From the NCBI GenBank assembly GCA_003132445.1, contig PKXU01000122.1, forward strand, positions 99,635 through 136,506: DNA of 36,872 bases, in the 5' to 3' direction. Made by a program: the position numbers and the translations under genes. Shown here piece by piece: positions 15,560 to 33,579 of this stretch. The stretch comes from Acidobacteriaceae bacterium. Its GTDB lineage: Bacteria > Acidobacteriota > Terriglobia > Terriglobales > Acidobacteriaceae. The notes under the pieces are model-generated. The model worked only from the letters and a program-made list of their open reading frames with translations. It had not been told where the DNA came from and ran no database searches. The first letter of the stretch is position 1. Each line of letters begins with the position of its first letter.

Positions 15560-15663
15560 ACTGAAGTTGATCAGGCTACACGGAGTAAATACTCGCGCCC
15601 TGAGCTGGCATCAAGATGCAGCAGATCGTGATTTCCAACAAAAATCGTCTTCTCTGTTCGATT

Positions 15664-17349: not shown

Positions 17350-17689
17350 CCCACTCGATTTCCGCGATGCCTGCGGCCCAGGTGCCCAGCCGCTCCTCGG
17401 ATTCACTCTCTTGTTTATACGCATGAGAGCCGCCAACTGCCGCGCTGGACGACTTAAACTAAATGATTACCCATCAATAATTTAGCGGCTTTGTCGATTG
17501 CTATGCGTCGGGAAGCGCCGCGGAAACGCGCTTTTCTTCGCACTCTGCGGGTGATTTAACGCGCTAGCGCGCTTAGCTGGTCCGCCTTCTCAAGGACTCC
17601 TCTGGATAAGCGGGCCACAATTGAGTCATGAGATTAAAGGATCGCTAGATGGTCAGCGTTCGATTCGATATTGAAAGTCGATCTGAAAT
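17350..17689. other. Divergent intergenic region
   Basis: Lies between the SGNH and PAP2 genes and probably carries both promoters. The clearest element is the 12-base palindrome CGCGCTAGCGCG at 17560-17571. Part of it (17350-17436) may be coding if the SGNH gene starts upstream. Nothing else was identified. Confidence 0.45.
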
Positions 17690-18782: not shown

Positions 18783-20702
18783 CTATTTCCTGCGAGCCCC
18801 GCTGTGCTGGGAAACGCTCCCGTCCGGATTATGGTTGTAGGTGTGGCAGGTCAAGGTGCAGGTGTTCGTGCTGCGGTTGTAACTGATCGGAGATGCGCCG
18901 TTCATCCCCACGACTTGCAAGTCAAAGTTGACCAGCCGCTCGCCGGTTATGTTGGCTGAAATTGCGCCCATACCGTGAGCGGTGTGGCAAGTGGAGCACG
19001 TGAATCCGGCGTTGATATGACTGGCGTGTTGCGTGAAACTGGCATTCGAAAGGATGTTCGTTAGATCGTGACACTTGGCGCAGAGCGCATATGGCCCCGT
19101 CGGGCCCAGATCTGGCGGAGCGAATAAATTGATGATGGTAGATCCCGGTCCCGCCCCTGCCGCCACCTGACTGAACTGGTACTGGCGTTCGAGAATGTGC
19201 GGATAGATCGAACCGTGCGGTCCGTTGGGGCCGGTTTGGCCAAATTCCCGGTTATCGTCACTGTTATGGCAATCCGTACAAAAAATCCGCACACCCATGA
19301 GACGGCTTTGACCGGTGCGACCGATATTGATCATGTTCGTCAGCAAACTTGGCTGCGGCAGCGCACTGGAGCGATCGTGCGTAACCGGATGACTGGAAGT
19401 TGCGGTCGCACTGAATTCCGGAATCACGTTCAGCGGATCCGGCGCAGCCACGTCCCGCGTCGGGAAATATCCAAATTTCGGCAATATCTGCGTGCCACTG
19501 CTGGTGCCGTGGCAACGCAGGCAATTCTCATACTGATTAATTGCAGGATCGAGTATCGTCACTCCATCAGAAGCGCTTACTCCCACCACGTCTGTCTCAG
19601 AGGTGCGAATCAGCGGAGGGGCGGCGAACGTCGTAACCTGATTGTCCGCGTGAGCGTTGTGACAGTCCGTACAGGTGGCGTGACGGTTGTTGTTCAGTAC
19701 GGCGGCTTCCGCAGGATCGTGAATGCTCGTGACCGTACCCGCAGGCAGCGGATGAGAGATCTTCGCGAGTTCGGAAGCGATGTCCGGAGCTACCGGCGTC
19801 AGATTCAAGCCGCCACTGTGGCAGGTCACACAATCCTGGCTGGTGGGGTCGAGGCTGGGCGCCGGCGGCGTGGCTGGCCGCAACAGCCGCGCCACTCCCT
19901 GGCCATTGTGCGGCATATGGCATGAAATGCAGGCGTTCTTTGCAACGGTGTCATAGGTCCCGACATGCGCGCCTACCGCAGGTGTGTTGGTCGCTCTCTG
20001 GTGGATACTTTGGGTCCAACCCGTGAGCGGATTTACCTGGCCAGTTACGGTTCGATTGGGATCATGGCACGCCAGACACAAGCGCCCCATAGAGCTATCC
20101 AACACCAGGAAATTCTGCGAGATTTTGTCGATGGCCTGAACATGAGGATTGTGGCAGCTGGTGCACTCGACATTGCCGTTAATGAGCTTCACGGCGTGCG
20201 TCAGATCTAAGGTGGTCCCATTCGCCACCAAGGTGCTCGCCAGATCAGGGGAATCCTTCATCGGCAGAACAAGGCTGAAGGGATGCGAATTCTGCATGTT
20301 GGTGCCCAATATGTCCTGCGGGTACATGGAACCGACGGTCGGCATTTTGCCGTAGGCGGTCGACTGTCCGATAGCTACGGTTCCATCGTGACAGCTAAGG
20401 CACAAACTGCTCGCGGCGCCCAGAGTGGGCTGGGTCTGGCCGGTCTGGTGGTAAGTAGTGCTGTTGTAGGGAGTGTAGGACTGCTTGGATAAGGTCTGGT
20501 TCCACAGAGCAGGTATGTCGCCGGCACCGCTGTGCGGCGCATGGCAGAATGTGCAACCCAACGCCCCAGGAGCCTGGATCGGCGATTTTCCGCCGACTGT
20601 GAGGTCATGCATGCCCAGCACGTCGCCGCCGGTTTGCGCGCGAGCTCCGCTGCCCGCGAAGATCGCGATCAGGAGGAGTGCGCAGATGAGACTGGCTTTC
20701 AA
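18783..20702 (-). CDS. Multihaem c-type cytochrome, 11 CxxCH plus one CX3CH
   Basis: Secreted cytochrome of about 639 residues. The TTG at 20702 is chosen: AGGAGG lies 6 bases upstream and translation yields a clean signal peptide (MKASLICALLLIAIFAGSGARA-QT). The open frame continues to 20756 but would overlap the preceding gene. Eleven CxxCH haem sites are visible (CTFCH, CLSCH, CTSCH, CLACH, CISCH, CVTCH, CTDCH, CLRCH, CTDCH, CAKCH, CSTCH), plus CTLTCH near the C-terminus with three residues between the cysteines. There is no lipobox, so it is not an obvious outer-membrane lipoprotein. Its first ~120 residues resemble the tetrahaem cytochrome of the same operon (DVLGxH, CHxPHSGA, CLSCHDG). 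It is the last gene of the operon and converges on the PAP2 gene; the probable role is an extracellular electron carrier. Confidence 0.85.
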   Translation of the reverse strand: MKASLICALLLIAIFAGSGARAQTGGDVLGMHDLTVGGKSPIQAPGALGCTFCHAPHSGAGDIPALWNQTLSKQSYTPYNSTTYHQTGQTQPTLGAASSLCLSCHDGTVAIGQSTAYGKMPTVGSMYPQDILGTNMQNSHPFSLVLPMKDSPDLASTLVANGTTLDLTHAVKLINGNVECTSCHNPHVQAIDKISQNFLVLDSSMGRLCLACHDPNRTVTGQVNPLTGWTQSIHQRATNTPAVGAHVGTYDTVAKNACISCHMPHNGQGVARLLRPATPPAPSLDPTSQDCVTCHSGGLNLTPVAPDIASELAKISHPLPAGTVTSIHDPAEAAVLNNNRHATCTDCHNAHADNQVTTFAAPPLIRTSETDVVGVSASDGVTILDPAINQYENCLRCHGTSSGTQILPKFGYFPTRDVAAPDPLNVIPEFSATATSSHPVTHDRSSALPQPSLLTNMINIGRTGQSRLMGVRIFCTDCHNSDDNREFGQTGPNGPHGSIYPHILERQYQFSQVAAGAGPGSTIINLFAPPDLGPTGPYALCAKCHDLTNILSNASFTQHASHINAGFTCSTCHTAHGMGAISANITGERLVNFDLQVVGMNGASPISYNRSTNTCTLTCHTYNHNPDGSVSQHSGARRK

Positions 20703-20747
20703 TGCATTCCTCCTCAATGCGTCCCCTCCTGTCAATGCGTTCCCCCC
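20699..20747 (-). repeat. Triplicated Shine-Dalgarno/start-like unit
   Basis: Three imperfect 15-16-base copies lie head to tail across the NHL stop and the cytochrome start. Each reads, on the minus strand, a purine-rich GGAGG-like run followed by GCATTGA (plus-strand units 20699-20713, 20714-20729, 20732-20747). The most upstream copy contains the NHL stop TGA. The most downstream has the best spacing and is taken as the real start (TTG, 20702). Confidence 0.6.
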
Positions 20748-21811
20748 TGGCCCCATTGCCCGATTCCGAAATAGCGGAAAACCTGGACCCGGCGGTTGAA
20801 ACTATCAACCACAAAAATCCGGTCGGAGCGGTCAATCGCCAATCCGGTCGGGAGTTGGAAATATCCGAGGCCGGTGCCTCTTCCGCCGAAGTAGTAGAGC
20901 AACTGACCCTCGTTGTTGAACACCTGCACCAGGCTGGACAAGCCGTCCACCACGTACAGATGGCCCTCGGAATCGAACCCGATCCCCTTGGGCCGGTATA
21001 ACCCTCCCATACCGTTGCCGATCTTGCCGACGGTGTGTTCGAATGTTCCGCTGCGGTCCATGATCTGTACCCGGAAGTTCATGGCGTCGACCACCGCGAG
21101 GTTCTTCCCATTCAGCAACAGTTCGGTGGGATAGTTGAACTCGCCTTCCGCAGTGCCGTTGTGCCCGATCTTTTCCATAACACTGCCGTCCATATCGAGG
21201 ACGAACACCTGGTCGCGCAAAGTGTCGGTGATGTAGATGCGCTTCGCTTCGGAGTCCACGGCAATGCCGGTCGGCCGCTTGAAGTAACCTTCTCCGCCCT
21301 TCAGGCTGTCCAGTGCGCGCCGGAACTTTCCGCCGGCATCGAAGACAAATATTTTTCCCGACTTGGAATCAGTCACGTAGATATTGTCCTTGGCGTCGAC
21401 GGCCACTCCCTGCGGGGCGCGCATCGGGTCCTTGCCCGCGTCTTTGCGTTCCAGAAACTTATATTTCTTCTGCTCGAAATCAAAAATGTGAACTCCGTAC
21501 GCTCCGGGATCAGTCACGATTAACCGGCCGTGCGAATCAACCGCAATGTCATACGGGCGAACCAGGCCCCTGTACTCGGGCGGACCGGCGATGACATCAA
21601 TGACTTTCTTCCAGAAGGCGCGCTTTATTTCCACGTCATGCGCTGAATTAAAAACGCGCTCGTAGACCAGCCTTCGCCCTCCATCCATCAGAATGTCGGG
21701 CGGGCCCGGTTCGACAGGATTATTCTTTTTTTCATTATTCTTTTTGTCTGCAGCGCTGGCGAAGGCTCCCACAAGGCAGATGATCCACGCCGCTCTCCAC
21801 CATCCGCGCAT
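20732..21811 (-). CDS. NHL-repeat beta-propeller protein, exported
   Basis: About 359 residues from the ATG at 21811, which gives a signal peptide (MRGWWRAAWIICLVGAFASA-AD). An upstream start at 21850 would overlap the barrel gene by 19 bases. Six NHL blades are visible from about residue 80 on, each with the pattern P-x-G-(I/V)-A-V-D...(I/L)-(Y/F)-V-x-D, for example MRAPQGVAVDAKDNIYVTDS, KRPTGIAVDSEAKRIYITDT and QLPTGLAIDRSDRIFVVDSFNRRVQVF. This makes a six-bladed propeller likely. Such propellers are frequent next to multihaem cytochromes in Geobacter-like electron-transfer clusters and may aid cytochrome assembly or surface docking. That role is inferred from context. Confidence 0.85.
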   Translation of the reverse strand: MRGWWRAAWIICLVGAFASAADKKNNEKKNNPVEPGPPDILMDGGRRLVYERVFNSAHDVEIKRAFWKKVIDVIAGPPEYRGLVRPYDIAVDSHGRLIVTDPGAYGVHIFDFEQKKYKFLERKDAGKDPMRAPQGVAVDAKDNIYVTDSKSGKIFVFDAGGKFRRALDSLKGGEGYFKRPTGIAVDSEAKRIYITDTLRDQVFVLDMDGSVMEKIGHNGTAEGEFNYPTELLLNGKNLAVVDAMNFRVQIMDRSGTFEHTVGKIGNGMGGLYRPKGIGFDSEGHLYVVDGLSSLVQVFNNEGQLLYYFGGRGTGLGYFQLPTGLAIDRSDRIFVVDSFNRRVQVFRYFGIGQWGQGGTH

Positions 21812-21831
21812 TACAATCCGGCACGCACCCG

Positions 21832-23679
21832 CTAGAAGAAACTGAACCATCGGTTCACTCCAACGTAGTATGAGTTTACATTCGCTGGTGGAGCGCCGGC
21901 GGCGGTGATGCTCTGGGAGAAACGGTTGAAGCCGGCGTTAAAACCTAAACGCCGGGCGTGATAGGTAGCGTTCGCGCTGAGCATTCCAGTGGAATTGTAG
22001 GAGTTTGTGGATACATTCGTCGTCGAACTGGTGGCCTTGGAATAGGAAGCCCAGAGGGTAAGCGAACGCTTCGGCGACGCTGTCGCCGTAGCCCCAACAC
22101 TGTGAGCGTTGAAAAGGATTTGAGAAGAAGTTGGCAAAAGCACTGCGGCAAGGGGCACACTCTGTAACCCATTCGATGTCAGTATCGAAGTTCCCGAGGA
22201 TAGCGAGTAATTGAAGTTCGTCGAGTACCGTCCGTTGCCCAGCGCGGTAAATACGTTTTCAGAGTGGTTGCCAGTGCCGCTTTGTCCCGTCAGCAAGCTC
22301 TGACCTCCTCCGACCCCGGCACTCCAATACCAGTGATCGGCGCGGCGATTGATGTGGCTGCTCCAGCGGTAATCCGACTGATTATACCCGACCAGCATGG
22401 TCGCTACGTTCTGCTGAAAAGCGAACTCGCCGCCGGTTTCCCAATGATTGAATCGACGCGACGCGCTCACTGCAGTGTTCAGACCTACGTTGCCATTTCC
22501 TTCCTCGGTAGAATTGTCGATCATTGAGACCGACCAGTTCAGAACTCCGAAGAGCGGGCGCCGGTAGTTCCCGTATAACGTGCCCGTAAAATAGGTCTCC
22601 TGGTAGCTTCCGCCAGAGTAGTCCTGCCCGACATGCGTAACGTTCGCCGCAGCGTAGAGACCGTTGTGAATCTCATAGCTGCCGCCTCCGGTTACCGTGT
22701 AGGTGTTCGAAGCCGCCCCGCCCAACAGGAGCGGAGGCGCGACCCCGTTACTCGCGATCGACTGGTTCAGCGACGCGTAGAGATTATCGGAGTACGATCC
22801 ACTGAACGACAGGCTCGACTTTATCGTGGGAATCAGAAATACGCCGCCGGTCACCGTATCCATCGTGCTTCGCCCCTCGTTGACTCCCTCGAAGGAATTG
22901 TCGAAATGGGTTTGCGACACGTCGCCATAAGTATTTCCGTGCCACGGCAGAGAGTGCGTAGCTTGAAAGCTCAAGACGTCGTTGCTGCCGGATGAATCGA
23001 TTTCCGGGGTTCCGACCATAAACCCTGGAATCTTCGAGTCGAGCGTAGTTTTTTGATACATGCCGGTGAGGTGAAAACCTGCCACGCTGTAATTCGACCG
23101 CAGGTTGAAATTTCGAGTGTCGCTGGTGCTGGTTTCACCGGCGCCCAGCACGGAGCCTGTGCCCGTGCCGGAAGTGAAGGCTGCGGTTAACGTGGGAAGA
23201 CCGGGAAGCAGTGCGCTCCAGGCAATGTTGTATCCATGCCCTTTGCCGTCGGTGGTGACGTTCGGGCCATCCGCCATCCCGAACATCGAACTCTTATTGC
23301 CGAAGTCGGAAAACCCTATGGTCCCGGGAAAGTGGGAACCGCTGAATATCTGAGACGTGACATTGACTCCGCTGGTATCGAAAATCGAATCCTGATCGGA
23401 ATTGGCTCTGGACTGGTTGTAATAGGGCCGCACATCGAAGGAAAAAAAACGAGGGTCGTAGTAGGAGCCGTCAACCGTCGCGTTGCCGCCGTACTGGAAG
23501 CCATGGTTGGACTCAATCTGATCACCCGAGGCGGCGTTGTAACCTCCGGTGAGGCTCCCATTTGCCATCATCCGGAGATTCCCAAACTGAAACTGGGCCA
23601 TCGCAGTCCCGGAGAGCACCAGCAGCCCCATCCCCAGTCCCAGTACAACCACCCATGCATTTCGAATGTACCGGCCCAC
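21832..23679 (-). CDS. Large outer-membrane beta-barrel (porin of a cytochrome conduit)
   Basis: A 615-residue protein starting with GTG (GGGAG 7 bases upstream). A signal peptide covers residues 1-28 (VVVLGLGMGLLVLSGTAMA-QF). The mature part is rich in alternating Tyr, Ser, Thr, Gly and Asn with no hydrophobic helix, consistent with 20 or more beta strands. It ends in NRWFSFF, and a terminal Phe is the usual signal for barrel assembly. Many strands carry the short-turn pattern expected of outer-membrane proteins. Placed between a prolyl isomerase of the SurA/PpiC class and multihaem cytochromes, it is the candidate pore that holds or surrounds a haem wire, as MtrB or OmbB do. Direct homology to those cannot be judged by eye. 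Confidence 0.75.
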   Translation of the reverse strand: MGRYIRNAWVVVLGLGMGLLVLSGTAMAQFQFGNLRMMANGSLTGGYNAASGDQIESNHGFQYGGNATVDGSYYDPRFFSFDVRPYYNQSRANSDQDSIFDTSGVNVTSQIFSGSHFPGTIGFSDFGNKSSMFGMADGPNVTTDGKGHGYNIAWSALLPGLPTLTAAFTSGTGTGSVLGAGETSTSDTRNFNLRSNYSVAGFHLTGMYQKTTLDSKIPGFMVGTPEIDSSGSNDVLSFQATHSLPWHGNTYGDVSQTHFDNSFEGVNEGRSTMDTVTGGVFLIPTIKSSLSFSGSYSDNLYASLNQSIASNGVAPPLLLGGAASNTYTVTGGGSYEIHNGLYAAANVTHVGQDYSGGSYQETYFTGTLYGNYRRPLFGVLNWSVSMIDNSTEEGNGNVGLNTAVSASRRFNHWETGGEFAFQQNVATMLVGYNQSDYRWSSHINRRADHWYWSAGVGGGQSLLTGQSGTGNHSENVFTALGNGRYSTNFNYSLSSGTSILTSNGLQSVPLAAVLLPTSSQILFNAHSVGATATASPKRSLTLWASYSKATSSTTNVSTNSYNSTGMLSANATYHARRLGFNAGFNRFSQSITAAGAPPANVNSYYVGVNRWFSFF

Positions 23680-23701
23680 TTGATATCTCCCGTCGATTGC
23701 C

Positions 23702-24769
23702 CTACATCAACCGCACGCTGGCGGTGCTCCTCAATTCCTTATCCAGTGCGGCGCGCAACTGTTCCCGCTTCTGCTTGGTGAGTTCTTCTTTCAATTTCGC
23801 CTTCACTTCCGCAAACGGCCGTTGGCCGGCGGGAGCATAGCTGTTCAGCCGAACGATGGTGTAAGCATCGTCCACTGCGATCAAACCGCTGACTTGTCCG
23901 GCTTTCATGCCGCGCAAAGTCTTCATTACTTGAGGAGGCAAGTCGGAGACTTGCACGGTCTTGTGCTCGCCCATGTTGACCCGGAAGTCGTCATCGGAAA
24001 GCTTCTCCGCCAATAATCCGAATTGCTCATAACTCTTGCTCGTGCTGGCCTGGCGGATCGCATCTTCGGCCCGTCTCTTGACCGAGATTGGCAGCTCTTT
24101 CCCGTTCTGTCGGGGAATGAGCGAAATGGTCTGAATGGCGAATGTTTCCGAACGGGCAAAGAATTTTGGATTCTTTACGTAGTAGGCCCGCGCCTGCGCG
24201 TCGGTGATTACCGCTTTGCTCTCCACTTGCGTGCGCAGCATCCAGTCGATCAGCAAAGAGCGCCGGACGCGCTGACGAAGAACTTTTTCCGAACCCTGGC
24301 ATTCGTCTGCCAGGTAAGCCTGGTACTGCTCCGCGCTGGAAAATTGCGCCTTGTAACTGCGCAGGCCGGAGGATACGGTTTGCGCCGTAATCGGCGCCTG
24401 GCGCTTTTGTGCCGCCTGATAAACCAGCTCCTCAAAAACGATCATCTCCAGTGCGCCCTGGCGGATTTGCGCTTCCTGTTCCTTGGGAAAGCCGTTGTGC
24501 ACGCGCGCGTAGGGAAAAATGGCAAACATCTCGCGCAGCAGGTCACGCTGGGTCAGCACCGTTCCATTCACCTTGGCCACGGGCTGGTCCATCGACATCG
24601 TCGGCGCCATCGCCGGAGCGGGAAGCGTGGTGGTGAGCGTGGCCGCGTGCGAAGCTACCTGCGCCGGCGCAGCCACAGCCAGCGCCATCAGAACCACACC
24701 GCAGAGCGCCATTCGGCAGATCGCAACTCTAGAGATCGTCACTCCGTAGATCGTCATCCGGTACTTCAT
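23702..24769 (-). CDS. SurA/PpiC-type peptidyl-prolyl cis-trans isomerase
   Basis: Periplasmic folding factor of 355 residues. A hydrophobic export signal covers about residues 12-36. The SurA-N-like domain begins at about residue 60 (VAKVNGTVLTQRDLLREMF...). A parvulin domain follows at about 190-310, with the segments ETFAIQTISL, YEQFGLLAEKLSDD and MKAGQVSGLIAVDDAYTIVRLNSY. A basic helical tail follows (KAKLKEELTKQKREQLRAAL). GAGG lies 7 bases before the ATG. It sits directly downstream of the tetrahaem cytochrome terminator and 22 bases upstream of the barrel gene, so its likely clients are the barrel and the secreted cytochromes. PpiC genes are recurring neighbours of nanowire-forming cytochromes. 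Confidence 0.85.
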   Translation of the reverse strand: MKYRMTIYGVTISRVAICRMALCGVVLMALAVAAPAQVASHAATLTTTLPAPAMAPTMSMDQPVAKVNGTVLTQRDLLREMFAIFPYARVHNGFPKEQEAQIRQGALEMIVFEELVYQAAQKRQAPITAQTVSSGLRSYKAQFSSAEQYQAYLADECQGSEKVLRQRVRRSLLIDWMLRTQVESKAVITDAQARAYYVKNPKFFARSETFAIQTISLIPRQNGKELPISVKRRAEDAIRQASTSKSYEQFGLLAEKLSDDDFRVNMGEHKTVQVSDLPPQVMKTLRGMKAGQVSGLIAVDDAYTIVRLNSYAPAGQRPFAEVKAKLKEELTKQKREQLRAALDKELRSTASVRLM

Positions 24770-24809
24770 CTGGATTCCTCTCTGCTGCTTTCAAGTCTGT
24801 GCTGCTTTC

Positions 24810-24838
24810 AAAAAAGGGGGAGAAGATTTCTCTCCCCC
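24810..24838 (-). terminator. Intrinsic terminator after the tetrahaem cytochrome gene
   Basis: On the minus strand an 8-bp perfect stem, GGGGGAGA / TCTCCCCC with a 7-base loop (24816-24838), is followed by TTTTTT (24815-24810). It lies 18 bases past the cytochrome stop codon and inside the operon, so it should act as a partial terminator that raises the upstream transcript over the downstream genes. Confidence 0.85.
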
Positions 24839-24856
24839 ATGTAAGGCGAAGCCCAC

Positions 24857-25882
24857 TTAGAACAGCGTGGGGATGCTGCCGCCGTTGGTTTCGTTCGACG
24901 TGTCAAAGTGGCACTGACGGCAGAACTGTGTCGTCGAGCTGGCCATGCCGCCGCCGTTGAAGGCCGTATTGGCCGTCACGTTATAAGGACCGTTGATGAA
25001 GAAGAACGTGCGATAGTGCTTGCCGCCGCCGTCGGCAGCGATCTGGGTGCCGTACGCGACGCCGGGTGTGGAGGTGTACACGTTCATTACGTGCTGATTG
25101 TGGCAAGTGGTGCAAACCACGAAGGCGCCCAATTGGCCGGTTGAGGGGGCCACAGCGACTCCGTAAGGATTGCTCCACTGGCCGGGGGCCAGCGCCGGCC
25201 AGCCGTAGTTGTTGACGAAGGTTGCGTACGGCGATCCGGCTGTGACGGAAAGTACGCCGCTGCCTTTGCCGTTGGGGGTGAATACCAGACCGGTGCAATT
25301 CACGTTAGGCGTGCAGCCTGAGCCTGTATCGGTTGAGATTTGCGCATTCGGCCCTACCGGGTGATCGTTGTTGTAATCGCCCACGGTGCCGCCATCGTTG
25401 CCGAGCAGGGTGGGAATCGGGTTGGTGCCGTAAACGGAAGGCAGTACGCCGATCTTCTGCTCGTAAGACTGGTTGGTCATCATGTTGGTCTGCGTGACGC
25501 TGCCGTCGTGGCAGCTCAAGCACATCAGCAAGCCACCGGTCTCAGCATCGCTGATTCCAGCCGACATGTTGCTGGGCAGGGTTACGTTGTAGGCACTTAA
25601 GGGGGCGTACGACGCGGGCTTGTCGCCGAACTGGAAGGTCTTGCCGTACAGAACGGCTACGTCCTGACCCCAGAGAGCGGTATCACCGCTGCTGACATCG
25701 GTTGTGGCTTGGCCGGAACCGCGCGCGCCGCTGTGCGGTGTGTGACAACCCGCGCAACCACGACCCTGGTTCTGGTGAGCGCCGAGAACATCGGTTGTTG
25801 GAATGTAAGCGTTGCCGTTTTGGGCGAGTGCCAAACTCGCTGCCATGACAACGAATAGAGCTACTAGCGAGAGTTTCTTCAT
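24857..25882 (-). CDS. Tetrahaem c-type cytochrome, candidate extracellular nanowire subunit
   Basis: Secreted 341-residue protein with a clean signal peptide (MKKLSLVALFVVMAASLALA-QN). Four haem sites: C43-H47 (CAGCH), C121-H125 (CLSCH), C257-H261 (CTTCH) and C321-H325 (CRQCH). Five other histidines (H36, H50, H174, H264, H289) could provide distal ligands, enough for bis-His ligation of all four haems. An extra Cys pair (C190, C196) may form a disulfide. The rest is a Gly/Ser/Thr/Asn/Tyr-rich, low-charge sequence suited to a packed extracellular filament. Four haems, size range and the company of PpiC, NHL and barrel genes resemble OmcE-type nanowire cytochromes. Regulation looks strong: AAAGGAGG precedes the ATG, the leader holds two dyads, and a terminator follows the gene. 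Confidence 0.85.
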   Translation of the reverse strand: MKKLSLVALFVVMAASLALAQNGNAYIPTTDVLGAHQNQGRGCAGCHTPHSGARGSGQATTDVSSGDTALWGQDVAVLYGKTFQFGDKPASYAPLSAYNVTLPSNMSAGISDAETGGLLMCLSCHDGSVTQTNMMTNQSYEQKIGVLPSVYGTNPIPTLLGNDGGTVGDYNNDHPVGPNAQISTDTGSGCTPNVNCTGLVFTPNGKGSGVLSVTAGSPYATFVNNYGWPALAPGQWSNPYGVAVAPSTGQLGAFVVCTTCHNQHVMNVYTSTPGVAYGTQIAADGGGKHYRTFFFINGPYNVTANTAFNGGGMASSTTQFCRQCHFDTSNETNGGSIPTLF

Positions 25883-25894
25883 ATAAATATTAAA

Positions 25895-25948
25895 ACCTCC
25901 TTTATTTGACAGCTGTTACAGCTACCACGTGGTACTGAAACCGGAGGT
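25895..25948 (-). promoter_or_regulatory. Structured leader of the tetrahaem cytochrome gene
   Basis: Reading the minus strand: ACCTCC (25948-25943), a 12-base palindrome TACCACGTGGTA (25934-25923), the dyad AGCTGT-A-ACAGCT (25923-25911), then the Shine-Dalgarno AAAGGAGGT (ending at 25895). The upstream ACCTCC is an exact complement of GGAGGT, so the leader can fold to hide the ribosome-binding site. The two dyads could instead be protein operators. The spacing from GGAGG to the ATG is long, about 13 bases. Confidence 0.45.
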
Positions 25949-25997
25949 CCTCTTCCGATTTCTTTTGGCTGTCCGCGGACAACCAAACTTGCTGCGC

Positions 25998-27293
25998 CTA
26001 CTGCGGCGCGGAATCCTTTGCCTTCACGGCCGGCTCTTGCTTCGAAGCCTGCGTCTCCACCGTTGCCGGGGTTATGCCGGCGCGTTTGCCCCTCAGTTCA
26101 GCATCGCGGCGCGCTTTCTCGGCGACGGCCTCCGCTTCGGTCACATAGCGGAACTGCTGCACCCGGCCCGGGTACTGTTCCGAGGTGAAAACCCGGTTGT
26201 TCTTCTTATCGGTGGTGATGCCGCACAGCGCGGCGAATTGTCCCGGCAGATTGCCGTGACCGCCGAGGTAGGTCAGCAGCCGGCCTTCTTTGTTGAACAC
26301 CTGCACACGATCCTGCATGCCATCCGCGACCCAGATGTGGTCGTCAGAATCGATGGCGACACCTTTCGGCCGCGCGAAGTAACCGGGACCGTCTCCAGCT
26401 TTGCCGAATTCCTTGATGAACTGGCCATCCGCATCGAAAACCTCGATGCGGTTGTTCATGGTGTCGGCGACGTACAAGTTGCCTTCGGAATCGACGGCCA
26501 CCCCGATCGGCTTGGAAAAGTCGCCGGGAGTGGTGAGTTCGTGGTTGTGTCCGGTAGTGCCGATCTTGCGGATCGGGTCCAGCGTGTCCGCGTCGTAGGC
26601 CAGCACCTGGTCAAGCCCTACGTCGGCAACGTAGAGAATCCGATTGTCGTTATCGATGGCAAGTCCGGAGGGGGCGCTAAGCCCGGTATTGATCTGACCA
26701 ATTACTTCGTTCGTGGGACTGAAGACGAGGACGCGTCGCATTTTGGCATCGGAGACAAAGAGGCGATCGCCGTCGTCGATCGCGAGTCCGATAATCCGGC
26801 CGAAGTTGGCATGAATGCCGTTCTTGATCATGTTCACGTCTTTGTTTTCGGTATTGAAGACGAAAATGGCGCCGACTTTTTCGTCGGCCACAAAAAGCTC
26901 TCCCTTGGAGTTGACGGCCATTCCGTAGGGTTCGATCAAAACGAAGTGGGGATGCTCGTCGCGTATTTCCTTCTCGGTTTGTGCGCCGGCCAGCCGGTCC
27001 ATCCAGGTCTGTTTCTTCTTTGCGCCGGGTTGCAGAGCAGCGAGATCGAGTTTCTCGCCGGAGTAGTAAGTCATGTATTTCACTCGCGCGATAGCCGGCG
27101 GCTGTGGCCACACGATCTTGGAAATGTCGAGCTTGTCGAGAAAGTTGGTGGGCGCCTTGTTATCCGTGGTCGCTTTCTTCTTTGGACCGGCGGAGAGTTG
27201 AAGCGGCAAAGCCAGCATCAGCGCCAGCAGCGCAAGAAGAATGTTGCAGGAGTGCCGGAGTGTGGGAACGCGAACTGAGTGGGCGGCAAACAT
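25998..27293 (-). CDS. NHL-repeat beta-propeller protein, exported (first copy)
   Basis: A 431-residue protein with a signal peptide (about residues 14-35, NILLALLALMLALPLQLSA-GP), a roughly 75-residue lead-in, then NHL blades from about residue 120 to 385. Examples are EPYGMAVNSKGELFVADEK, KPIGVAVDSEGNLYVADTMNNRIEVFDADG and RPKGVAIDSDDHIWVADGMQDRVQVFNKEG. A charged Ala/Glu/Lys-rich tail follows (about 390-431), absent from the second NHL protein. The ATG lies two bases after the stop of the 16-haem cytochrome, with AGGAG overlapping that stop, so the genes are coupled. The role in the cytochrome system (assembly, docking or scaffold) is inferred only from context. Confidence 0.85.
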   Translation of the reverse strand: MFAAHSVRVPTLRHSCNILLALLALMLALPLQLSAGPKKKATTDNKAPTNFLDKLDISKIVWPQPPAIARVKYMTYYSGEKLDLAALQPGAKKKQTWMDRLAGAQTEKEIRDEHPHFVLIEPYGMAVNSKGELFVADEKVGAIFVFNTENKDVNMIKNGIHANFGRIIGLAIDDGDRLFVSDAKMRRVLVFSPTNEVIGQINTGLSAPSGLAIDNDNRILYVADVGLDQVLAYDADTLDPIRKIGTTGHNHELTTPGDFSKPIGVAVDSEGNLYVADTMNNRIEVFDADGQFIKEFGKAGDGPGYFARPKGVAIDSDDHIWVADGMQDRVQVFNKEGRLLTYLGGHGNLPGQFAALCGITTDKKNNRVFTSEQYPGRVQQFRYVTEAEAVAEKARRDAELRGKRAGITPATVETQASKQEPAVKAKDSAPQ

Positions 27294-27295
27294 CG

Positions 27296-28804
27296 TTAGT
27301 CTCCTGATATGTTCCGCATGTTGGTGCGGTCTTTATGACAGCTGTCACAGAACGCCATGTTGTTGGCCCGGTCTTTCACCAGCAGATCCGCCTGGGCGGA
27401 AGAGTGCGGCTGGTGACAGGTCAGGCAGTTGATCTTGCGGCGTACCTTGGAGGAATCCTTGGGGTCCATCTGGTCCGCCACAGGATGGCCTTCAGTGGGA
27501 TGACCCAAGCCGTACTTGATGGGAAGGTGCATGGCGATCGCCGCGTACTTCTTGGGCATCGTCACCTTGCCGTTGAAGATGGTTACGAAATCGTCTGAAT
27601 CGGTCGGCCTGGCGTTATTCAGCGGACCGTGGCACTCCATGCAGAGATCGTTGCCCGCGACCCGCAGCAGCTTCGCATTGTCCGAGCCATGCGCTTCGTG
27701 ACAGGTCGAACATCCCTGCTCGAAGACGGGCTGGTGATGAACCTTCTTCTTGCCAGCGTCGGCTATATCGGAGTGGCAACCCAGGCAGATGTTGACCGCG
27801 TCCGTCTTCGGCAGTCCGGGCTGTGGGCTGGCGTGCGGATTGTGGCAGTCGAGGCATTCGCCGGCCTGCGCGCCGGGATGCGGAACCTTTGCGGTCTCGA
27901 TCTTCTTTTCTTGCTCGTCGTGGCAGGTAACGCAGAGCGCCTTGGCGTCGGCTTGCGTGAGGACCACCTTGCCGTCTTTCGCCGGAGCGTGACACAGGTC
28001 GCAACTCTTGTCGGCGAAGGGCGGGTGGGTGAACCTCGCCATCAGTTTCGGAGACGCGGACTGGTGCGGGTCATGACAGCTGACGCAGTTCGCCGTAGCG
28101 AAGGGCTGATCGTGATGCGCCTTCTGCAGGCTGGCGTCCTTGGCATCGTGGCAGTCGAGGCAGAGCGCCGGGGACGCCTTGGCCAGGTGAAACTGGTTCT
28201 GCATGGTCTGCTCGGGGCCGGTCTTGTGCGTGGTGTGGCAGGTGTCGCATCCCATGTCCAGAGCGGCGTGGCGGCTGCCCTTTTCTGGAACGTTCGTTCC
28301 TTGCATATGGCAAGTAAGGCAGAGATTGTCCTTCTTCTCTCCCGAGGTCGCTTTCAGAAGTTGGTTCTTGTTGTCCGAGGTATGGGGATCGTGGCACTGC
28401 AGGCAGTCGCGAACCGCCGGCTGGTGCACATGACCTTGGATCTTGGAGGCATCCTTATCGGCGTGGCAGGTCAGGCAAAGTTTGTAGGGAACGGCGGTGA
28501 TCAGCCTGACGTGGGTAATGTCTTTATTGACCCGGATTTCATGACAGCTCAGGCAGCCCATCGCGATCGCGGAGTGGACCGCCTTACCTTTAGTCTTGTC
28601 TTCGTGACAAGTAATGCAGGTGGAGGCATCGGCCTTGGGATCAAGGGGGACGGGGTGCGTCTTCGCCAGCAGACTTGGCGCAAACCCCAGCAGCACAATC
28701 AAGAGCAGCACAATAAAGATAAGGAATTGAGGTAAACCGGCCAGAGTTTGCACGAAGTTTGGACCGTTGATCGAGGCCCATCGGGTTTGACATTTCGGCA
28801 GCAT
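27296..28804 (-). CDS. Compact 16-haem c-type cytochrome (doubled-CxxCH type)
   Basis: About 502 residues; ATG at 28804 preferred over GTG at 28810 (AGGTGG lies just before). A long hydrophobic segment (FLIFIVLLLIVLLGFAPSLLA) is a signal peptide or anchor. Sixteen CxxCH sites follow between about residue 65 and the C-terminus: CITCH, CLSCH, CLTCH, CLQCH, CLTCH, CDTCH, CLDCH, CVSCH, CDLCH, CVTCH, CLDCH, CLGCH, CSTCH, CMECH, CLTCH, CDSCH. Many are followed by DPH, NPH, TTH or EAH, giving distal-His candidates in the paired-CxxCH pattern. One haem per about 30 residues is the density of MtrA-like periplasmic haem wires. As first gene of the operon it is the likely periplasmic partner that hands electrons to the outer-membrane barrel. 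Confidence 0.9.
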   Translation of the reverse strand: MLPKCQTRWASINGPNFVQTLAGLPQFLIFIVLLLIVLLGFAPSLLAKTHPVPLDPKADASTCITCHEDKTKGKAVHSAIAMGCLSCHEIRVNKDITHVRLITAVPYKLCLTCHADKDASKIQGHVHQPAVRDCLQCHDPHTSDNKNQLLKATSGEKKDNLCLTCHMQGTNVPEKGSRHAALDMGCDTCHTTHKTGPEQTMQNQFHLAKASPALCLDCHDAKDASLQKAHHDQPFATANCVSCHDPHQSASPKLMARFTHPPFADKSCDLCHAPAKDGKVVLTQADAKALCVTCHDEQEKKIETAKVPHPGAQAGECLDCHNPHASPQPGLPKTDAVNICLGCHSDIADAGKKKVHHQPVFEQGCSTCHEAHGSDNAKLLRVAGNDLCMECHGPLNNARPTDSDDFVTIFNGKVTMPKKYAAIAMHLPIKYGLGHPTEGHPVADQMDPKDSSKVRRKINCLTCHQPHSSAQADLLVKDRANNMAFCDSCHKDRTNMRNISGD

Positions 28805-28810
28805 GGCCAC

Positions 28811-29235
28811 CTGTGCATGTGCACGAGCCTCACCCTAACTCTGGGGCGAGAAGTTTTTTTTGCTCAAGCTGTAAGTTATTGCTACAGAGCAAGTTCGCCT
28901 CAGCGTGAAGGTTGTTGAAAATTTCTACAGGTCGAGTCTTGTGGCCCAAAGTGGGCTTTCTCCCACAGCGGGACTGGTCAAATGACCCAAGTGCGCCAAT
29001 GTTGGACAGCGGGCCTTGACAAGCAAATTTGGCGGGGTGCTGTGATTTGAATTACACACTCGCCGACGCTGGGTGAAATCTCAGCCCGGGTCGGCGGCGT
29101 TGAGTGTTATGGCCCATCCGCAGCCTCTAACAGAAATGAGAATCCAGCTTCAAGGAATTGATCACAAAGGACTTGGTCCTACAGCGTGACTGTGGCGCAG
29201 AACGTGCAGTGCCAGATGCGAGGAAGAGAACGATC
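28811..29235. promoter_or_regulatory. Divergent control region between cytochrome and resB operons
   Basis: About 425 bases without a credible gene, between two divergent operons. It holds an imperfect hairpin (TTGCT...CTGTA / TACAG-AGCAA, 28860-28892) next to a T8 run (28853-28860) near the cytochrome side. A larger dyad lies at 29056-29107: ACACTCGCCGAC against GTCGGC-GGCGTT-GAGTGT. A candidate sigma-54 site near resB is listed separately. Both operons probably start here and may share regulators. Confidence 0.55.
29193..29208 (+). promoter_or_regulatory. Candidate sigma-54 promoter for the resB operon
   Basis: TGGCGCAGAACGTGCA has GG-N10-GC spacing and TGCA at -12. It lies 28 bases before the preferred resB start, leaving a leader of about 16 bases with GAGGAAG. 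It matters because the last gene of this operon encodes a sigma-54 activator. Chance occurrence in GC-rich DNA is possible. Confidence 0.35.
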
Positions 29236-30735
29236 ATGGCGCTCCCATTTCGATCTTCGAGCCGCAAAATCTGGCAGACGCTGAGCTCCATTAAAACGGG
29301 CGTCGTTCTAATTATTCTGGTTGTCATCTTCTCTGCGGCTGGCACGGTTATCCTGCAGCGCCCCATGACCGATGCCGACGACATGCAGCGCGCCTACTCG
29401 CCGGCCATGCTGCGCTTTCTCGACGTCACGGGACTAACCGACATTTTCCACACGCGTTGGTTTATCGCCCTGCTGATTCTGGTGAGTTTCAGCATCATCG
29501 CGGCGTCGGTGCAGCGCTTCCCTAACGCCTGGCGATACTACGCGCGTCCCTATAAGAGTCCCGACGAAAGCTTTCGCAAAGTCCTTCCCACTCAGGCCCA
29601 AGTTCCACTCGCCAACTATGACGAGGAGCAAGGTCTAAGCGCCGCCGAACGCGCATTGAAAAACCTGGGCGTGCCAGCGGAGCGGATTGTTCGCAGCAAC
29701 AGTTTCTCGTTGTTTGCGGAGCGCAATCGCATCTCCGAGATGGCCGTCTACATCGTCCATGCCAGCCTGCTGTTGATCTTCCTGGGTTTCATTGTGGACT
29801 CGGTCTACGGATGGCGCGGCTTCCTGATGCTGAGTCCGGGAACCGCCAGCAACCAGGTTGAATTGAAGAACGGCGCGCTTCGGACTCTGCCATTTTCCAT
29901 CCGCTGCGACGGCACCGGCGAAGAGACCTACACCGACGGAAGCCCGAAGCGTTGGTGGTCAAAGCTTGCCGTAGTCGATGGAGGGCATGAGATTTCTCGC
30001 AAAGAAATTGTGGTGAACGATCCGCTGGTGTATCGCGGATTGCGCTTCTACCAGGCGAGTTGGGGCCGCACCGGCAAACTCGACAAGCTGATCGTGGACG
30101 CAACGCGCCTGAATGGCGCGACCCGCACAACGCAGGAAGTTTCTTTGTCGATGAACCAGACGGTGGCGCTTGATTCCGACACCAGTGTGCAACTGGTCGA
30201 TTTCATCCCTGACTTCGTGGTGCAGGACGGGCGTGTTTATGCTCGCAGCAAAGAGGTCGTCAACCCGGCGGTTCATCTGGTGGTGACTTCGCAAAAAAAC
30301 AACACCAGCGTGAACGTCTGGCTGCCGGAAATTCCCGGCGTCGACGAGAACGCGGCCTCCTCCTACAGTTTTGATCCGAAGGATTTGAAGACTGAGGTTT
30401 ACACCGGGCTGCAGGTTTCGCACGAGCCGGGCCAGTTTGCCGTGTGGGCAGGAGTCGTGTTGATGGCTTTGGGCCTGACATTTGTCTTTTACGTGGTTCA
30501 CATGCGGTTCTGGGTTGTTCCCGTGGTCGATGCGCAAGGCCACAGCGCGCTTTGGATCGGCGGAACTGCCAACCGCAATCGCGACGCATTCGAACTGAAG
30601 TTCAAAAAAGTCGTGGAACAGATTCAGCAAGAATTGAAGATCCAAGTCGCTGCGCCTTCAGCCTCGACGGCAGCGATTCCGCAAAGGACGATGTCGGGCA
30701 AGACGCTCTCGGGAATAACCACTGCCGGAAGGTGA
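29236..30735 (+). CDS. resB: Cytochrome c biogenesis protein ResB (Ccs1)
   Basis: System II cytochrome c maturation subunit that, with CcsA/ResC, moves haem across the membrane and attaches it to CxxCH apocytochromes. About 499 residues from the ATG at 29236 (MALPFRSSS), preferred over the upstream in-frame start at 29158 because the membrane segment follows properly. Typical features: the first membrane segment after KIWQTLSSIKTGVVLIILVVIFSAAGTV, then a segment around TRWFIALLILVSFSIIAASVQR, a third at MAVYIVHASLLLIFLGFIVDSVYGWRG, a large periplasmic domain with LVYRGLRFYQASW, and a last segment near residue 420 (FAVWAGVVLMALGLTFVFYV). The gene is followed by ccsA after 22 bases. Confidence 0.92.
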   Translation: MALPFRSSSRKIWQTLSSIKTGVVLIILVVIFSAAGTVILQRPMTDADDMQRAYSPAMLRFLDVTGLTDIFHTRWFIALLILVSFSIIAASVQRFPNAWRYYARPYKSPDESFRKVLPTQAQVPLANYDEEQGLSAAERALKNLGVPAERIVRSNSFSLFAERNRISEMAVYIVHASLLLIFLGFIVDSVYGWRGFLMLSPGTASNQVELKNGALRTLPFSIRCDGTGEETYTDGSPKRWWSKLAVVDGGHEISRKEIVVNDPLVYRGLRFYQASWGRTGKLDKLIVDATRLNGATRTTQEVSLSMNQTVALDSDTSVQLVDFIPDFVVQDGRVYARSKEVVNPAVHLVVTSQKNNTSVNVWLPEIPGVDENAASSYSFDPKDLKTEVYTGLQVSHEPGQFAVWAGVVLMALGLTFVFYVVHMRFWVVPVVDAQGHSALWIGGTANRNRDAFELKFKKVVEQIQQELKIQVAAPSASTAAIPQRTMSGKTLSGITTAGR

Positions 30736-30757: not shown

Positions 30758-32155
30758 ATGGCACGCGAAAGAGTAGAACAGCATCCCGCGACCGGCAACA
30801 CGCTGGTCGTAATGGTGGGATTAGGAATTGCGTTCCTGCTGTTCATTGCTTTTCTAAACGTGGTCAAGAGCGGAAACATTTTGAGCGAAGCCAATCTGCT
30901 CTATGCCGCGCTGGTTTTTTACGCCGGTGCGGGAGCGCTTTATCTTGGCTTCGGGGTCACGGGAACGGATGCTTACATCAAGTTCGCTTCGCTGATGACA
31001 TGGGCTGGGCTGCTGGCCAACACCGGAGCGGTCGCTCATCGCTGGTACGGAGCCGGCCATCCACCGTTCGCCAGCATCTACGAGATGCTGTTGAGTTTTG
31101 TATGGACTCTGGCCGCGCTGACGCTGATCGCGGAAAAACGCTATGGAGTCAAAGTGATCGGTACCGTGACCATGCCCGTCGCGATTGTCGGCGTCATCCT
31201 GATGCAGCTTCTGCCCAGCGAAGTTCGCCCTCTGGTTCCCGCATTGCAATCCACCTGGCTGCACGTGCACGTCACGCTCGCCATGCTGGCCTACGCCGCA
31301 TGCGCATTGAGTTTTGCCTTGGCCATGATGTTTCTCATTCAGGATAAAGTGAAGACTGAAGTTTTCCTCGCGGCCACCAGCGTATTCACGGTGGGAATTT
31401 ATGGCGCAATCCTGCTGCGCTTCGAAAAATGGGGCGGACTCAACGTGATCGCATGGGACGCCCAGAATAAAGCGGAAGTATTTATCTCGCGCGGGGTGCG
31501 GCTCTTCGTCACGATTCCCGATCTCGGTTGGCTGATGCTTCTGGTCTTTGCCGCGGTGCTTGCGCCGCTCGTGCTGTATATTCTGTCGCGAGTAAGAAAG
31601 AACGAAAGTTTGCTGGCCATTGCCGATCGCGCTGTCTTCCTGAGCATCCTGCTGCAATCGCTGGCGCTGGTGTTTTTCCTGCTGCGTGTGCGCAACGGAC
31701 AATATCCTTCGCTCGACGCCGACGGCCTCTATGCCACCAGTCTGGCCACCAGCCCGTTCATTCTGTCGGCCTTGGTGGGCGGAATCTTCGCCAACCTCCT
31801 TTATCTGCTGTTGCTCTGGCGGCGCCAGGATCTGGAAAGACTTCTGCCCGATGCTGACGCGCTCGACCGCATCACCTACAAAACTATTTGCATTGCCTTC
31901 CCCTTACTCACCCTGATGATCGCCGCCGGCGCCTACTGGGCTAACCGGGCCTGGGGTTCCTATTGGAATTGGGATCCTAAAGAGACCTGGGCGGCGATTA
32001 CCTGGCTGGTGTATGCCGGCTACTTGCACATGCGCATCACCCGCGGCTGGCGCGGACGGCGCGCTGCCTATTTCGCCATTCTGGGATTCGCAGTCGTAAT
32101 GTTCACTTTCTTCGGCGTTACTTATTTGCTACCCGGACTCCACGCATATGCCTGA
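30758..32155 (+). CDS. ccsA: Cytochrome c biogenesis protein CcsA/ResC (haem handling)
   Basis: Polytopic haem-delivery subunit of System II, 465 residues, with about eight or more membrane segments. The haem-binding WWD-type motif is complete near the C-terminus ([21 protein letters not shown]). The periplasmic and membrane histidines expected for haem relay are present, including [17 protein letters not shown] (near residues 105-125) and [14 protein letters not shown] (near residues 167-180). GGAGG precedes the ATG. It partners with the ResB encoded just upstream. Its end overlaps the histidine-kinase start by 8 bases, so all four genes of this strand are likely one operon. Confidence 0.92.
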
Positions 32156-33485
32156 AACGACAAAAGAGCAACTCGCCCCGGGTATCGGAATCGCATCCAA
32201 GCCAGCGGTTTCTGCGCGGTCGCGGACCGGCTTTTACAGCACGGCATACACATCCGCTGCTACGCCGGCAGATGCGATTGCGACGTCACCGATTCCTGCT
32301 GATTCAGCCTCCGCGGCAGAAATTTCCGGGAATTCCGATCTGCCCTGGCTTCGCATTAACTGGGAGATCAAAGCGCTGGTTCCAATCGCCTGCGTTTTAC
32401 TGGGCGGAATGCTGTTGTTCCTGCTGGCAACGCTCTCCTGGCGCGATCCCGAGCGCCACATCGTTTTGTTAGTGGCGGGCGCAGGCGCGGTCGCCATCTG
32501 CGGCGCGCTGCTCGTGGTGCTCACCTACACGGTGCAACGGCCGATGGTCGAATTGCAGCAAGAGATTGCGCAACTGGGCCGCGGCGATCTCAGTGCGGCC
32601 GTCAGTTTCGCCCGCCGCAACGACGAAATCGGCGATCTCGGCCGCAACTTCAACCGCATGGTTCAGCAACTCCGGGAAAGCCGGACTGAGATCGAACAAC
32701 TGCACCGCACTCAAATGTCGCGCGCCGAGCATCTCGCGACTCTGGGAGAAATGGCGACTGGCCTTGCGCACGAAATCCGAAATCCTTTGGCGGGGATTGC
32801 CGGCGTCATTGAAATCATTAGCCGCGACCTCCCTGCGACCAGTCCCGCGCGCTCCGTAGTGAAAGATGTTCGCCAGGAAATCGCTCGCATCAATCACATC
32901 GTCACCGACCTGCTGCAAACCGCGCGCCCGCATCCTCCCACCGTGCGCAGGAGCGACCTGAACACGACGGTCGAACACGCCGTGATGTTAGGCCGTCAGC
33001 AAGCCCAGGCGAGGGCCATTCAAATCGCGCTCTATAAAGATTCGTCACTGCCCGAGGTTGAACACGATAGCGATCAGATTCATCAATTGTTGCTGAATCT
33101 TCTTCTGAACGCTCTGCAGGCGATCGACGTACAGAGCAATGCTAGTCAGGGCAGTGTTGGTCAGGGCAATGTCGTTCAGAGCAATGACTCTCACCCCGAT
33201 CACGCAAAAGGAAAAATCACAGTCACCGTGAAGGGCCTGGGGAACGCTGCCCTGATTGAGGTGGCTGACAATGGCCGTGGCATTCCATCCGATCAATTGC
33301 CTAGCATCTTCCGCCCGTTTTACACCACCAAAGGCGAAGGCACCGGCCTGGGATTGTCTTTAGCCCGCCGGATCGTCGAGGACCATCAAGGCCGCATTGA
33401 CGTCGCCAGCGCGGTAGGCCAAGGCACAACCTTCGCGGTCGTGCTTCCGCTGCAGAGGGCGGCAGTGCCAGTCTCTGGGTCTTGA
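32148..33485 (+). CDS. Membrane histidine kinase with HAMP domain
   Basis: Two-component sensor kinase of 445 residues. A 70-residue Ala/Ser/Pro-rich cytoplasmic lead is followed by two membrane segments (about 77-96 and 105-127) with only a very short external loop, so it has no periplasmic sensor domain. A HAMP domain covers about 128-180, with an aspartate-containing [17 protein letters not shown]. The phospho-acceptor is His208 in [13 protein letters not shown]. The ATPase domain has an N box ([13 protein letters not shown]), G1 (VADNGRGIP) and G2 ([14 protein letters not shown]). Four near-identical pentapeptides (residues about 328-347) lie between the N and G1 boxes. It overlaps ccsA by 8 bases and precedes its likely partner regulator, suggesting that it senses membrane redox or quinone state. 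Confidence 0.9.
33129..33188 (+). repeat. Four 15-base tandem repeats in the kinase ATPase domain
   Basis: Four imperfect in-frame copies of a 15-base unit encode [15 protein letters not shown] and VQSND. They lengthen the loop between the N box and the G1 box. The unit is a multiple of three, so copy-number change would leave the frame intact. Confidence 0.75.
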
Positions 33486-33579
33486 TCGGGTCGCGTCTGC
33501 TATAAAGCCAGTCTCGCCCCCATCTCTGTTTATTCCATGACGTGCCGCCAACTTCCCTTCCGTAGTAAGCTAAACTAGC

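Follow-up and report, generated by a model that had tools for sequence, protein, structure and literature searches.

A probable Uet-type outer-membrane electron conduit with an OmcE-type cytochrome in Acidobacteriaceae

Introduction

The closest described counterpart of the locus analysed here is the "undecahaem electron transfer" (Uet) cluster, uetA-J, of Ca. Tenderia electrophaga and Gallionella (PMC10734462). In the portion of that paper available to us, its parts comprise an extracellular tetrahaem cytochrome (UetA), an isomerase (UetB), a barrel (UetC), three trihaem periplasmic cytochromes (UetD/E/G), NHL proteins (UetH/I) and an undecahaem cytochrome (UetJ), the last tabulated there with both 11 and 12 haem sites. 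A gene order A-B-C ... J would agree with how the genes are named and with the locus tags that the trihaem and undecahaem genes carry in Tenderia. Both hosts, bacteria that oxidise electrodes or iron, are described as electron-uptake organisms in the available text (PMC10734462, PMC12575090).

Results

Gene content of the cluster

Seven open reading frames occupy positions 18783-28810 on the minus strand of the window (the whole stretch of 36,872 nucleotides that was analysed), in the transcription order, g1 to g7, given by the original prediction, and are separated by gaps of 2, 115, 87, 22, -19 and -25 nt. Its haem counts of 16, 4 and 12 sites were recovered as well, and Pfam matches agreed with its NHL (g2, g6), PpiC-type isomerase (SurA_N/PpiC; g4) and cytochrome (doubled CXXCH; g1, g3, g7) assignments. 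The cluster and its plus-strand neighbours are as follows:

27296..28810, minus strand: g1, 16-haem cytochrome, 504 aa, start codon uncertain (16 CXXCH; Paired_CXXCH_1, E = 1.8e-69)
25998..27293, minus strand: g2, NHL beta-propeller, UetH/I-like (NHL, E = 5.3e-31)
24857..25882, minus strand: g3, tetrahaem OmcE/UetA-type cytochrome, candidate filament subunit (4 CXXCH; signal-like N-terminus)
23702..24769, minus strand: g4, SurA_N/PpiC-type peptidyl-prolyl isomerase, UetB-like, folding factor (Rotamase_2, E = 1.7e-12; SurA_N_3, E = 5.6e-9)
21832..23679, minus strand: g5, predicted outer-membrane beta-barrel, UetC-like, 615 aa, start codon uncertain (0 Cys; C-terminal Phe)
20732..21850, minus strand: g6, NHL beta-propeller, UetI/H-like, overlapping g5 by 19 nt (NHL, E = 7.2e-29)
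18783..20756, minus strand: g7, UetJ-type dodecahaem cytochrome, start codon uncertain (11 CXXCH and 1 CX3CH)
29158..30735, plus strand: ResB of cytochrome c maturation system II, divergent from g1 (PF05140, E = 1.3e-78)
30758..32155, plus strand: CcsA-type cytochrome c assembly protein (PF01578, E = 6.5e-48)
32148..33485, plus strand: sensor histidine kinase, possible regulator (HAMP, HisKA, HATPase)
33580..35064, plus strand: NtrC-like sigma-54 response regulator, possible regulator (PF00158, E = 1.2e-67)

Conservation in relatives

The nearest relatives of the cluster are from Acidobacteriaceae. Five of these hold all seven genes with equal CXXCH counts, so the cluster is not a chance assemblage. 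Gene order is identical in four of the five, the exception (L008) having g1-g2 about 5 kb downstream, and g2 adjoins g1 in every one; the genes thus stay together in relatives, as a single system would have it. The 19-nt overlap of g5 and g6 recurs in 26 of 32 locus rows, which include the window and two pairs (L010/L029 and L011/L044) that are seemingly the same contigs counted as separate loci.

The g7 family was found in many phyla. Companion genes were counted in those 61 of 88 g7 loci that include 7 kb or more of sequence upstream of g7, revealing a second NHL gene in 56, an isomerase gene in 23 and a barrel-sized haem-free ORF in 50, the last an undercount, as two loci (L031, L161) have a barrel that the selection rule missed. 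The barrel-sized ORF ends in F, W or Y in 48 of the 50 cases. In gammaproteobacteria, too, there are clusters that combine a g7 gene with NHL, barrel-sized and OmcE-like genes. Occallatibacter savannae AB23, a cultured heterotroph, carries g3-g7 together and g1 elsewhere in its genome; the stretch matched by g1 there contains one TGA.

The 16-haem cytochrome and the predicted barrel

In a search against the PDB, g1 matched 6r2q_A (E = 3.7e-15), the MtrA chain, while its score against the DmsE-type decahaem model TIGR03508 (186.2 bits) fell below the cut-off of 192.2. In profile comparison, g1 proved homologous to the 26-haem cytochrome that OmcS-nanowire clusters encode (P = 100, E = 5.8e-57, 372 columns), and it also scores against the 16-haem cytochrome of those clusters. 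We regard g1 as a probable periplasmic or trans-barrel wire; it occupies the place of the trihaem UetD/E/G proteins in a Uet-type parts list.

The structure model of g5 predicts a wide, 28-strand barrel with an MtrB-like fold, MtrB being the best match among solved structures by structural alignment, and its width speaks for the barrel originally proposed. At the sequence level g5 diverges fast, with no Pfam family at E ≤ 1, no NCBIfam at E ≤ 0.1 and no PDB match at E ≤ 1. Pfam includes an MtrB model.

OmcE-related cytochromes

A search with the single g3 sequence did not find a relation to OmcE, which is seen via family profiles only: a profile of Acidobacteriaceae g3 proteins matched a tetrahaem profile from other phyla (P = 98.9, E = 1.2e-17, 137 columns), and the latter matched OmcE (7tfs; E = 9.9e-46). 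These comparisons place g3 in the OmcE nanowire family, as a divergent member. For g7, the single sequence sufficed (7tfs_A, E = 5.5e-12): its N-terminal stretch (about residues 40-234) is an OmcE-like tetrahaem domain, to which a part with eight haems is joined. Both g7 and the g3 family match OmcE first, rather than an OmcS-type filament cytochrome. Across 54 g7 proteins (the window, three relatives and 50 of the 76 listed), the 11 CXXCH motifs, the CX3CH motif and 13 non-motif histidines are all invariant, and a CX3CH lies near the C-terminus in 87 of the 88 loci, the remaining one (L037) ending at a contig edge. The claim that none of the cytochromes can be recognised as a named Omc/Mtr protein was therefore too strong, given that g7 leads to OmcE and g1 to the MtrA chain and the 26-haem cytochrome, and that profiles assign g3 to the OmcE family.

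These similarities could also belong to a porin-cytochrome conduit that makes no filament, with g3 and g7 acting as monomeric surface cytochromes on soluble or mineral substrates, as MtrC and OmcA do. Consistent with this, g7 and g1 pass PF22113 (MtrC/MtrF domains II/IV), and the Acidobacteriaceae g3 proteins are enlarged (298-358 aa) and resemble solved filaments only weakly. However, all seven g3 proteins have four CXXCH motifs and four invariant non-motif histidines at the positions kept in the filament family, and g7 gave no match to the OmcA/MtrC model TIGR03507 at E ≤ 0.1. Moreover, an OmcE-like tetrahaem gene, on either strand, shares the locus with g7 in 58 of the 61 loci, as counted with a tetrahaem profile built largely from the same loci and many of the same proteins. 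We give the filament-free conduit a real but minority chance. As a nanowire candidate, g3 is preferable to the 16-haem g1, and g7 is its likely partner.

Neighbouring genes and host physiology

The ResB gene beside the cluster is the sole one found in the genome, and ResB adjoins g1 in 12 of 22 distinct loci (g1 more than 45% identical, window included), some of the others ending at a locus edge. A relative of the histidine kinase lies between g7 and g1 in two split clusters (L008, L022), and copies of the response regulator, 78-83% identical, occur in L008, L022 and L033. The host genome contains three COX1-type oxidase genes above cut-off, while RuBisCO was not found in it (87% complete). 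Because the host therefore looks, by its genes, like an oxygen-respiring heterotroph, we favour an outward flow, with iron oxides, humics or other cells receiving the electrons under oxygen shortage.

That no RuBisCO was found in the 87% complete genome, together with the presence of g3-g7 in the heterotrophic relative O. savannae AB23, argues against a conduit that runs inward, with Fe(II), other minerals or partner cells as electron donors, as proposed for the Uet clusters of Tenderia and Gallionella. Such uptake, which we consider the less likely direction, finds support in the parts list itself, described in the available text for electron-uptake organisms (PMC10734462, PMC12575090).

Discussion

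Taken together, sequence comparison and the barrel model suggest that the operon probably encodes a Uet-type outer-membrane electron conduit with an OmcE-type filament cytochrome. In this scheme, g1 would move electrons across the periplasm, perhaps into the g5 barrel, like MtrA in MtrB, and g7 at the cell surface would relay them between the conduit and g3, which may polymerise into an OmcE-like filament or serve as a surface cytochrome. The isomerase g4 and the propellers g2 and g6 could assist folding, docking or export, and the adjoining ResB and CcsA would attach the haems. That the cluster is instead an OmcS-companion (Osc) / OetABI machine is highly improbable: g1 does show homology to the 26-haem cytochrome of such machines and a match to their 16-haem one, and isomerase, NHL and barrel are kinds of part that both share, but the window cluster has neither a 26-haem partner nor an OmcS-type hexahaem, the barrel profiles barely match (P = 31), and an 11-CXXCH protein was listed in none of eight comparison loci.

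For the Uet-type conduit, we tentatively propose that g7, and with it the UetJ family, is a base or cap subunit that links the outer-membrane conduit electrically to an OmcE-type filament. The first domain of g7 would have the filament-subunit fold and accept or donate one neighbour, and the eight-haem remainder would dock onto the barrel. The g7 family has 13 invariant non-motif histidines for 12 haems, as compared to four for four in g3; the one extra histidine fits a base role, since a subunit that donates one ligand to its neighbour without getting any in return has to carry exactly one more histidine. If true, OmcE-type nanowires with a dedicated anchor would be present in Acidobacteria, Planctomycetes, Verrucomicrobia, Bacteroidetes, Nitrospirae and Proteobacteria. 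Filament anchoring and electron entry into cytochrome filaments are a named open challenge in the available part of one paper (PMC12307469). A conserved protein that joins a filament-subunit domain to eight more haems, and whose gene in many phyla lies alongside a barrel gene and one of the filament type, makes the anchoring question directly testable. The locus further suggests the trait for soil and peat Acidobacteria, among them the named strain O. savannae AB23.

Compared with MtrCAB (6r2q), the g5 model is closest to MtrB and g1 matches chain A, whereas no Pfam family is listed for g5, g1 with its 16 haems falls under the DmsE cut-off, and no gene of the window cluster reaches the OmcA/MtrC cut-off. 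The N-terminal domain of g7, like the g3 family, shares with OmcE (7tfs, Geobacter; 9yuq) the four CXXCH motifs and histidines at the N-terminus, after haem 1, in DHP and after haem 3; in contrast, g3 is longer and divergent, and g7 carries eight extra haems. The OetABI / Osc loci of Desulfobacterota likewise combine a multihaem wire of the g1 type, a PPIase, a propeller, a large barrel and a nanowire cytochrome, but pair a 26-haem with a 16-haem cytochrome where the window cluster has only g1, and the desulfobacterotal locus L188 holds an OmcS-type hexahaem in contrast to the OmcE-type g3 and UetJ-type g7.

The likeness to Uet extends, by description and for the barrel by prediction, to g3 (UetA), g4 (UetB), g5 (UetC), g2 and g6 (UetH/I) and g7 (UetJ). 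The original prediction held this combination to be typical of extracellular electron-transfer loci; the parts do match, and the combination has in fact already been published as the Uet cluster (PMC10734462). All members compared of the g7 family keep a twelfth site (CX3CH), and UetJ is already tabulated with 11 and 12 sites (PMC10734462). The window cluster comes from another phylum than Tenderia and Gallionella and has no trihaem UetD/E/G gene. Measured against the available part of the Uet description, the window operon is a variant of the Uet cluster in which a 16-haem wire replaces the trihaem UetD/E/G proteins.

Operon layout and neighboring genes

The original prediction placed seven minus-strand genes in order at 18783-28810, and the window's open reading frames and translations bear this out. 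In transcription order (g1 to g7), followed by the upstream neighbors, these are:

g1, 27296..28810, minus strand: 16-haem cytochrome, 504 aa, 16 CXXCH
g2, minus strand: NHL propeller
g3, minus strand: tetrahaem cytochrome, 341 aa, 4 CXXCH
g4, minus strand: SurA/PpiC isomerase
g5, minus strand: barrel, 615 aa, cysteine-free, C-terminal Phe
g6, minus strand: NHL propeller
g7, 18783..20756, minus strand: cytochrome, 657 aa, 11 CXXCH and one CX3CH
nearest upstream, divergent: ResB and CcsA
32148-35064, beyond ResB/CcsA: histidine kinase, then sigma-54 response regulator

Intergenic distances from g1 to g7 are 2, 115, 87, 22, -19 and -25 nt. Family-model searches of all seven proteins gave no family assignment for g5. 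Judged by eye from the translations, none of the window's cytochromes has a lipoprotein signal, unlike MtrC and OmcB, which carry one. No sigma-54 pattern was found in the window upstream of g1, and the operon-adjacent ResB was the only copy found in the genome. Past the operon's end (14018-18760) lie an MBOAT acyltransferase, a 590-aa protein unmatched in Pfam at E<=1e-5, and a protein of PAP2 type. Elsewhere, the window's genome (87% complete) contains three COX1-type genes above cut-off, no detected RuBisCO and, at G000:C141:59101-62932, 13 listed CXXCH-type codon patterns on a single strand, perhaps a second multihaem locus.

Cytochrome relationships and proposed mechanism

As a single sequence g7 matched OmcE (7tfs_A) over residues 16-232 (E=5.5e-12), and its 54-sequence profile matched OmcE at E=1.1e-44 and 9yuq_N at E=2.2e-34, with the best other chain at 3.1e-15. 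In relation to OmcE, g3 is more divergent: its single sequence matched only 9yuq_N, and its Acidobacteriaceae profile matched 9yuq_N (E=1.3e-6) and had no match to OmcE at E<=0.01. That profile did match tetrahaem proteins of other phyla (P=98.9), which themselves matched OmcE at 9.9e-46 and OmcS much more weakly (3.6e-9). Chain A of 6r2q, which g1 matches, is MtrA (PMC12203936), although the molecule name in the structure file differs. g1 also has a homologue in the 26-haem cytochrome that certain clusters in the Desulforhopalus phylum encode. These clusters additionally carry a 16-haem cytochrome together with isomerase and propeller genes, and one of them (L188) contains an OmcS gene (E=1.9e-99).

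In the favored reading, electrons would pass between periplasm and surface through g1 and the g5 barrel to reach g7, and g7 would exchange them with g3, a probable filament subunit. The propellers and isomerase would help assembly; folding and secretion roles have been proposed for companion proteins of the OmcS cluster (PMC13194489, citing Shen 2025).

Conservation of the operon

Among the phylum's 347 genomes, a search with g5 matched six, counting that of the window; all six belong to one family. All seven genes are present in the five relatives' loci, each with CXXCH counts of 16, 4 and 11, and four of the five retain the complete order; in the fifth (L008), g1-g2 are displaced ~5 kb downstream and there is an additional g3 copy. 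Identity to the window is 51-67% for g1, g6 and g7 and 29-42% for g5, the fastest-changing of the four proteins compared. Including the window and counting same-contig pairs once, 22 distinct loci have a close g1; a divergent ResB adjoins it in 12 of them, and some of the remainder are truncated by the locus end. The sensor kinase and NtrC-like regulator (window 32148-35064) accompany the cluster even in split arrangements, with relatives of both in L008 and L022. In several relatives an opposite-strand g3-type tetrahaem gene directly follows g7, mostly as a second copy, and may be an alternative filament subunit. Such genes beyond g7 are:

L008:8187-9083, opposite strand: g3-type gene
L021:5137-6186, opposite strand: g3-type gene
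L025:11887-12747, opposite strand: g3-type gene
L026:9979-10845, opposite strand: g3-type gene
L028:11928-12809, opposite strand: g3-type gene

Distribution of g7

A scan based on the g7 alignment, covering 84,980 species genomes, confirmed at least 553 places, some of which may be OmcE-like proteins only, because the scan patterns fall in the OmcE-like domain. We retained the best 80 of these; all 80 have a g7-like protein with at least 9 CXXCH and, by title, they span Acidobacteria, Desulfobacterota, Pseudomonadota, Nitrospirae, Planctomycetes, Verrucomicrobia, Bacteroidetes and others. Within the phylum, 39 of 347 genomes matched g7 (E<=1e-20), 25 covering at least 500 of 626 positions by our count. 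For the class of the gammaproteobacterium L048 the figure was 37 of 321 (E<=1e-60), eleven covering at least 500 of 600 positions, again by our count. Other gammaproteobacterial matches (for example, G505, G415 and G412) form a separate family with open frames of ~820-960 aa, aligning only to about the first 300-355 of 600 g7 positions; this, too, is a large protein that begins with an OmcE-like part. In a tree of 54 g7 proteins, a branch with 100/100 support sets apart the side that holds all 25 labeled Acidobacteriota rows, so that g7 looks old within the phylum rather than recently acquired.

Of the 88 loci, 61 extend 7 kb or more upstream of g7, and neighborhoods were counted in these. An OmcE-like tetrahaem gene shares the locus in 58, an NHL gene is adjacent in 56, and a barrel-sized haem-free ORF and an isomerase occur in 50 and 23, respectively. 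The cytochromes of g7 loci that bear some resemblance to g1 carry from 4 (L065) to 19 (L052) CXXCH, with 5 common, and none was found between propeller and barrel in six gammaproteobacterial loci (L159-L164). Four deltaproteobacterial loci (L064, L065, L067 and L087), three of them of Desulfobulbales type, have a 13-haem and an 8-haem cytochrome after g7.

Histidine counts

The "undecahaem" class has a twelfth site, a CX3CH close to the C-terminus, that is invariant throughout the 54 aligned g7 proteins, among them the window's own (18783-20756). One OmcE haem takes its His ligand from the next subunit (PMC12203936). The 54 g7 proteins share 13 invariant non-motif His for 12 haems, with three more kept in 93-98%, versus exactly four for four haems in seven Acidobacteriaceae g3 proteins from six genomes. 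This parity could indicate that g7 caps or anchors an OmcE-type filament, but a fifth His, at LWNH, is retained in the 26 tetrahaem proteins from other phyla, and the argument is therefore only suggestive.

Comparison with published systems

The source paper for the undecahaem electron transfer (Uet) cluster of Tenderiales and Gallionella is reportedly Eddie 2022. Among the papers searched, none paired a Uet protein name with OmcE. The text of PMC13264449 contains the words undecaheme, OmcE and Acidobacteri, making an earlier mention in this phylum possible. Related descriptions include an operon of 16-haem and 26-haem cytochromes, isomerase and propeller (PMC5539420), OetABI (PMC10553843), Tenderia transcript data (PMC5371394) and the uetA-J naming (PMC12575090). 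Uet has the same parts list as the window operon (PMC10734462) but also the trihaem UetD/E/G, which the window operon lacks; we therefore call the latter a Uet-type variant rather than a member of Uet.
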